Below are positions 8,472-9,598 of a DNA stretch of 43,379 nucleotides, in pieces. Positions within the stretch are counted from its first letter, which is position 1, and each line of letters starts with the position of its first letter. A model generated the notes under the pieces. It did not search any database and was not told the origin of the DNA. It saw only the letters and a program-made list of their open reading frames with translations. This stretch comes from Flavobacteriales bacterium (lineage in GTDB: Bacteria > Bacteroidota > Bacteroidia > Flavobacteriales_D > Crocinitomicaceae). The stretch is taken from contig CANHSA010000003.1 of the NCBI GenBank assembly GCA_947463345.1, positions 1-43,379 of the forward strand, read 5' to 3'. The translations under genes and the position numbers were made by a program.

Positions 8472-9122
8472 CTAAAAATTCTTGAGGATGATTTTGTTGC
8501 GCAGTAATTTTATTTCTCCTTTTGTTTCAAGTTGCTTGAGTAGTCTTGAAATAACAACCCTCGAAGAGTGGAGGTCATCTGCAACTTGCTGGTGGGTATG
8601 GTTGATTTCAACGCTACCTAAAATCTTGGCCTGATCAGAAAGGTATTTGAGTAAGCGTTGATCTAGATTCATAAAAGCGATGGCATCGATAGACTCCATG
8701 AGTTCGAGCATGCGGGTATGGTAGCTATCTAAAATAAATTGTCGCCATGTTTTGTATTGATCGAGCCAGCGCTCCATGTATTCGGAAGGAAACATCAATA
8801 GAAGCGAAGGCTCCATAGAGGTGGCTTTGATCTGAGAGTCGATTCTTCTGGTGCAACATTGCAAGGACATGGCGCAGGTGTCGCCGCCTTCCATATAATA
8901 AAGCAGTAATTCGTCGCCACTTTCGTTTTCTCTCGAAATTTTGATAGACCCTTCGATGACAATTGGTATCATTTGAAGTTGGTCTCCTACGTTGACGATA
9001 ATTTCATCCGTGGCGGTCTCTCTAATTTTGGCGACCTGTGCCATTTCTTCAAGAAGTGCATCTTCGAGCAAATACCCTAAATGGGCCTGAAGCATTTCGA
9101 GCTTATTTTCTGACTTGAGCAT
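8472..9122 (-). CDS. Crp/Fnr family transcriptional regulator
   Basis: Cyclic-nucleotide-binding-like beta-roll plus C-terminal HTH: QQVADDLHSSRVVISRLLKQLETKGEIKLLRNKIILKNF. Start placed at MLKSENKLEML (9122); the 9194 extension in the ORF track lies inside the upstream DUF983 gene. Confidence 0.92.
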   Translation of the reverse strand: MLKSENKLEMLQAHLGYLLEDALLEEMAQVAKIRETATDEIIVNVGDQLQMIPIVIEGSIKISRENESGDELLLYYMEGGDTCAMSLQCCTRRIDSQIKATSMEPSLLLMFPSEYMERWLDQYKTWRQFILDSYHTRMLELMESIDAIAFMNLDQRLLKYLSDQAKILGSVEINHTHQQVADDLHSSRVVISRLLKQLETKGEIKLLRNKIILKNF

Positions 9123-9492
9123 CTGCGTCGTAGGAGATAAAGAAATTGGCCCAAATGATTTTAGAGAGCGCAAATAAATAGGGTGACAATACAAGTGTGA
9201 AAAAGACCACTAAACCAATTTGACTCCAGGCGCTCAGCCAGGGAAACCAAAGGTTACAAGAGGCCCACACCGTCACAAAAAGCGCAACGCCTAAAGCGTA
9301 TGAAACGTACATCGCACCATAATAAAAACCGGGCTCGCGCTCGTATTTTAAATGACATACATCGCATTCTGTTTTGACATCTCCAATATTTTTTAGGTCG
9401 TATGGGTGTGAGACTAAGAATTGACCTTCATGGCACTGCGGACATTTCATCTTGGCAATGCTGTACATTTTTGTTCCTTTTCCTACTATCAT
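9103..9492 (-). CDS. DUF983 family membrane protein with N-terminal zinc-ribbon-like CxxC pairs
   Basis: MKCPQCHEGQF...CDVCHLKYEREPGFYYGAMYVSYALGVALFV; 20-nt overlap with the downstream crp/fnr start. Confidence 0.85.
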   Translation of the reverse strand: MIVGKGTKMYSIAKMKCPQCHEGQFLVSHPYDLKNIGDVKTECDVCHLKYEREPGFYYGAMYVSYALGVALFVTVWASCNLWFPWLSAWSQIGLVVFFTLVLSPYLFALSKIIWANFFISYDADAQVRK

Positions 9493-9496
9493 ACAC

Positions 9497-9504
9497 CAAA
9501 GTTA
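9497..9504 (-). promoter_or_regulatory. Consensus -7 box TAACTTTG, 4 nt before the DUF983 ATG
   Basis: Minus strand: TTG-N17-TAACTTTG-gtgt-ATG. Confidence 0.7.
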
Positions 9505-9525
9505 CTTTCTTTATGGCTTGGCAAC

Positions 9526-9539
9526 GTAACTTAAGTTAC
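9526..9539. promoter_or_regulatory. Perfect 14-bp palindrome GTAACTTAAGTTAC; candidate Crp/Fnr operator
   Basis: Exactly self-complementary; reads GTAA-N6-TTAC. Centre 9532.5 lies about 40.5 bp upstream of the DUF983 ATG/predicted TSS. Confidence 0.65.
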
Positions 9540-9542
9540 CAA

Positions 9543-9598
9543 TGTCAGCAAAACTGACAAAAAGACATTTGATTGCGGGAAATACCGATCAAAATGTC
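9543..9598. promoter_or_regulatory. Two further inverted repeats upstream of dnaK
   Basis: TGTCAG-CAAAA-CTGACA (9543-9559) and GACATTTGAT-N14-ATCAAAATGTC (9564-9598, one-nt bulge). Confidence 0.5.

Follow-up and report, generated by a model that had tools for sequence, protein, structure and literature searches.

Substitutions of Glu181 in E. coli CRP, Val included, shift the preference of this regulator at base pair 7 of its operator from G:C towards A:T. A second well-described relative, the cyanobacterial nitrogen regulator NtcA, utilizes a GTAN8TAC site located at about -41.5 (PMC3898017). Genes for the handling of sulfide and persulfide are controlled by CstR and SqrR/BigR, regulators with paired cysteines (PMC9774590, PMC5823870), and the persulfide-responsive regulators named in a review are repressors of the CsoR and ArsR types (PMC9774590). 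In the Bacteroidota, the levels of pdo and sqr transcripts rise upon addition of sulfide (PMC12345210), and no report of a sulfide regulator of the Crp/Fnr type in this phylum was found in the open-access literature. A Crp/Fnr-family regulator and its operon were examined in a window (i.e. the whole stretch of DNA that was analysed) of 43,379 nucleotides from a Flavobacteriales bacterium. Comparison with relatives indicates that this locus looks like a sulfide/persulfide switch and not one protein with an odd mutation. A previous interpretation of the DNA (hereafter the sequence-only reading) missed what we regard as the main point, i.e. a candidate sulfide regulon in relatives, and likewise made no mention of the cysteines that are conserved in the regulator.

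The regulator, its cysteines and its operator

The regulator is a protein of 216 amino acids encoded on the minus strand (8472..9122). Two Pfam domains, HTH_Crp_2 and cNMP_binding (PF13545 and PF00027), scored above their cutoffs, as found for members of the Crp/Fnr superfamily, and the predicted structure matched the CRP, NtcA and DNR folds. By curated cutoffs, the regulator is neither CRP nor NtcA, with the NtcA equivalog being the best NCBIfam match at 44.9 bits against a cutoff of 245 and the CRP equivalog scoring 38.8 bits against a cutoff of 266. Alignment to E. coli CRP (NP_417816) was gapless across the recognition helix, SSRVVISRLLKQLE (residues 186-199; 8526..8567, minus strand), with R180 and R185 retained as R188 and R193 and E181 replaced by V189, exactly as the sequence-only reading had described. 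In the effector domain, the residues of CRP that contact cAMP (i.e. E72 and R82) were replaced by M85 and D95, indicating that cAMP is unlikely to be the ligand.

A whole-protein search was used to gather homologues in the family, and the regulator was detected in 151/200 family genomes (E<=1e-20). The effector domain contains a cysteine motif, C83-x5-C89-C90 (8853..8876, minus strand), in which C83 and C89 were conserved in 150/150 regulator homologues and C90 in 147/150. Persulfide-sensing regulators are characterized by a conserved pair of cysteines, and C83/C89 constitute such a pair. From this conservation we infer that the regulator is a cysteine-based sensor of sulfide or persulfide. 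The AlphaFold model had a mean pLDDT of 85.8 but a value of about 62 for the cysteine segment, so that the geometry of these cysteines is not settled by the model.

The first gene of the operon encodes a DUF983 protein of 129 amino acids (Pfam PF06170; 9103..9492, minus strand) and overlaps with the regulator gene by 20 bp at its end. DUF983 is a membrane protein with zinc-ribbon-like CPQC/CDVC motifs, and across many genomes its gene is retained in one operon with that of the regulator. A start at a downstream ATG near 9468 was considered for this gene and was weakened by retention of the M-x-x-GKG start in two relatives (L195 and L199). The operon is preceded by a palindrome, GTAACTTAAGTTAC (i.e. 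GTAAC-TTAA-GTTAC; 9526..9539, without strand), which is in the CRP register with each half-site reading G5 T6 A7 A8 C9. The palindrome precedes the DUF983 ATG (9492) by 40.5 bp, measured from its centre (9532.5), as previously claimed, and a Bacteroidota -7 promoter box, TAACTTTG (9497..9504, minus strand), follows after 21 nt. A transcription start site near 9492 is expected from this box only, and placement of the start by the box would make the DUF983-crp mRNA nearly leaderless, if the ATG at 9492 is the start codon.

Conservation of the palindrome was scored as a match of at least 13/14 positions with base 7 left free. The palindrome was present in 46/49 DUF983-crp loci of the family, giving a positive outcome to the comparison of orthologous loci advocated in the sequence-only reading, and exact copies of GTAAC-N4-GTTAC were found in 29/49. 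The gap between the palindrome and the TAnnTTTG box was 21-22 nt in 47/49 of these loci; the site scan mildly favoured a box at 17-26 nt, such that the range of gaps was imposed but the peak was not. The N4 core drifted among orthologues while the half-sites were constant, which is the pattern expected of a protein-binding site, and the combination of constant half-sites, a drifting core and a gap fixed at 21-22 nt is far beyond chance.

Residue 181 and operator base 7

The equivalent of V181 (i.e. V189) was found in all 149/149 rows of the subfamily alignment with a letter at this position, and Val181 is by this measure a trait of the family. Homologues with E181 exist phylum-wide, and their sites partly precede the same PDO and TauE genes as the V181 sites. 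For the counts of residue and base, any letter was allowed at base 7 and a box had to be located at 20-24 nt. At base 7, half-sites of V181 regulators (n = 102) had A in 95 cases and G in 5, with C and T occurring once each, as compared to 8 A and 8 G in half-sites of E181 regulators (n = 16), with 7/8 of the E181 sites having a G7 half. The Fisher p for this difference was about 7e-6, in a sample of few genera and with kinship ignored. Asymmetric GTAAC-N4-GTCAC sites were observed near the E181 homologues of L239, L240, L242, L243, L245, L249 and L295, several of them before PDO/TauE.

These counts bear on an explanation in which an E181V substitution in this protein converted a GTGA specificity into one for GTAA, with the operator evolving in step. 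The excess of A7 among V181 sites and of G7 halves among E181 sites is in keeping with such a history, but the invariance of V181 across the subfamily indicates that there was no recent change in this residue. Furthermore, four V181 loci of genus g19 (L053, L056, L058 and L059) have an unchanged helix and a GTGAC-N4-GTCAC operator, and one E181 locus (L296) has GTAAC in both halves. We consider this explanation to be possible but doubtful. The fit between Val181 and A7 put forward in the sequence-only reading appears real as a tendency across homologues but is not strict, and the proposal that a residue change in this one protein explains its operator was not supported.

Predicted targets in relatives and the candidate signal

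The regulon of the genome that contains the window was sampled by searches of a draft of 1.96 Mb that is about 85% complete. In this draft, GTAACTTAAGTTAC occurred as one exact copy, at DUF983-crp, and convincing sites were present at the crp operon and nuoA only. Other, looser GTRAC-N4-GTYAC sites (two intragenic and one at the 3' end of a small ORF) were taken as chance occurrences. A search for the palindrome before other genes, as previously envisaged, was successful for nuoA and for many targets in relatives, but produced no second exact copy in the draft itself. Searches of this 85%-complete draft for PDO and SQR were negative, such that a role in sulfide handling is carried over from relatives. 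SQR was absent from 2/3 congeners searched, and a congener with a 98% identical regulator (G193) has a PDO gene with a site (L120).

Among 12 congeners, sites were observed before nuoA, a cydA-like gene and genes encoding a PDO-type metallo-beta-lactamase/rhodanese protein, an SQR-like protein and a rhodanese lipoprotein. Congener clusters with the palindrome also hold a gene for a PF03601 (YeiH-type) membrane protein. The PDO gene had a site 22 nt before its box in 6/6 congeners where this gene was seen. The 497 kb of loci from named relatives, mostly Flavobacteriaceae and retrieved in part by a pattern containing RVVISRLLK, had 67 sites at intergenic positions and 4 inside genes, as compared to a mean of 0.3 expected from shuffled sequence. 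The gap between site and box was 22 nt in 36/43 and 21 nt in 4/43 boxes. Genes behind these class II sites encoded TauE/SafE (19), PDO-rhodanese (15), SulP sulfate permease (7), DUF983 (2) and the regulator (2), and single class II sites preceded genes for one cytochrome c and one YgaP-like protein. The regulator gene often adjoined target genes of the persulfide/sulfide type in the named relatives; DUF983, crp and PDO are combined in one locus of a Dokdonia MAG (L199), with sites before both DUF983 and PDO. In a phylum-wide sample, class II sites were found at 10/31 loci encoding a regulator with C83 and C89 as compared to 1/29 loci whose regulator lacks C89 (kinship ignored).

The signal for the same self-controlling activator and operator could instead be low oxygen, NO or the redox state, in which case the sulfur genes would be one component of a regulon for respiration (nuo, cyd). 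The FNR, DNR and HcpR relatives are sensors of oxygen or NO, and this kinship favours such a signal, as do the sites at nuoA and the cydA-like gene and the proximity of cytochrome c and CydA genes to the regulator in several relatives. The conserved cysteines could hold a cofactor and could, more generally, be sensing something else, i.e. oxygen, NO or a metal. However, TauE, PDO and SulP genes were the commonest class II targets, and the invariant cysteines consist of two or three residues close together in the effector domain and not of an FNR-type set of four. A respiratory signal is accordingly judged to be unlikely, and sulfide or persulfide is the signal that we favour.

Mode of control and relation to known regulators

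With positions predicted from the -7 box, the 21-22 nt gap in both data sets (47/49 and 40/43) centres the site near -41.5, i.e. at a class II position. This activator spacing makes it most likely that transcription of the DUF983-crp operon and of the sulfur genes is activated by the regulator. Repression of its own operon from the palindrome would be within the repertoire of Crp/Fnr proteins, which are capable of both modes. A repressor position is indeed occupied at nuoA, where the site, GTAACGAGTGTTAC (L074:1501-1514, contig C26 of the same draft), is downstream of the TAAATTTG box and before the nuoA ATG; this site was kept, at about 18 nt before the ATG, in 7/13 genomes searched, and complex I may possibly be repressed by the same regulator. 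The spacing at DUF983-crp is nevertheless that of a class II activator and is common to the sulfur genes, making self-repression quite improbable.

The divergent neighbour of the operon is dnaK (from 9667 onward, plus strand). An inverted repeat, TGTCAGCAAAACTGACA (9543-9559), adjoins the operator and is kept beside dnaK in the closest relatives (L002-L009). This TGTCAG-N5-CTGACA repeat is possibly a control element of dnaK; it occurred as a single exact copy genome-wide, giving no sign of a regulon. The palindrome is within the common dnaK/DUF983 intergenic region of the closest relatives, but a reading of it as part of a heat-shock promoter for dnaK, unrelated to the regulator, is barely credible as it recurs at PDO and TauE genes and is found upstream of DUF983, with the same gap to the box, in L142, L144, L147 and L148, where searches gave no dnaK match nearby. 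Persistence of the site with DUF983 where dnaK is not adjacent indicates that the palindrome belongs to the DUF983-crp operon. This independence from dnaK, combined with conservation of the palindrome and of its gap, lends support to the class II placement and self-control advanced in the sequence-only reading, and class II self-activation of DUF983-crp is a well-supported prediction.

The explanation that we regard as likely draws on the sites, spacing, conservation, target genes and conserved cysteines visible in these sequences. The regulator is predicted to bind GTRAC-N4-GTYAC palindromes and, where these are about 41.5 bp upstream of the transcription start, would act as a class II activator of Bacteroidota promoters with a TAnnTTTG box. 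Its targets would include its own DUF983-crp operon, resulting in self-activation, and, in relatives, genes for detoxification of sulfide and persulfide (e.g. persulfide dioxygenase-rhodanese, TauE sulfite exporter, rhodanese and SulP permease), while the site downstream of the promoter box at nuoA would lead to repression. The signal would probably be sulfide or persulfide, perceived through C83 and C89, within a cNMP fold whose capacity for cAMP binding would be lost. A more general proposal, to which we give an even chance, is that of a cAMP-independent activator of the Crp/Fnr type that senses persulfide (C83/C89) and turns on genes for sulfide detoxification via GTRAC-N4-GTYAC sites across the Bacteroidota, with residue 181 and base 7 co-varying among homologues.

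The best solved homologue is a Crp/Fnr protein of Eubacterium rectale (3dv8), which has Cys at both positions but differs in having Glu at the 181 position (HREVITRM); we know of no function or regulon for this protein. NtcA, the second-best solved homologue, is a class II activator for which a DNA complex has been solved (9gui). Its helix (STRVTVTR) has Val at the same position as V189, and the regulator has the NtcA trait of an R-V-x-x-x-R helix combined with a GTA-N8-TAC site near -41.5. The Val/A7 pairing is therefore not new in kind, with NtcA, on this comparison, as the precedent. The targets of NtcA are nitrogen genes, whereas sulfur genes were found here, and the conserved pair of cysteines is a feature of the regulator. 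E. coli CRP has in common with the regulator the fold, R180/R185, the operator register and the class II placement; it differs in having Glu181 instead of Val, cAMP residues E72/R82 that are lost here, and a TGTGA operator as compared to GTAAC. The combinations of V181 with A7 and E181 with G7, and the exception of V181 with G7, amount to a natural data set for a classic question of protein-DNA recognition. CstR and SqrR/BigR are repressors of the CsoR and ArsR families, whereas the regulator described here would be an activator of the Crp/Fnr family and, if this is true, a Crp/Fnr persulfide activator would fill a gap in the understanding of sulfide handling by the Bacteroidota.
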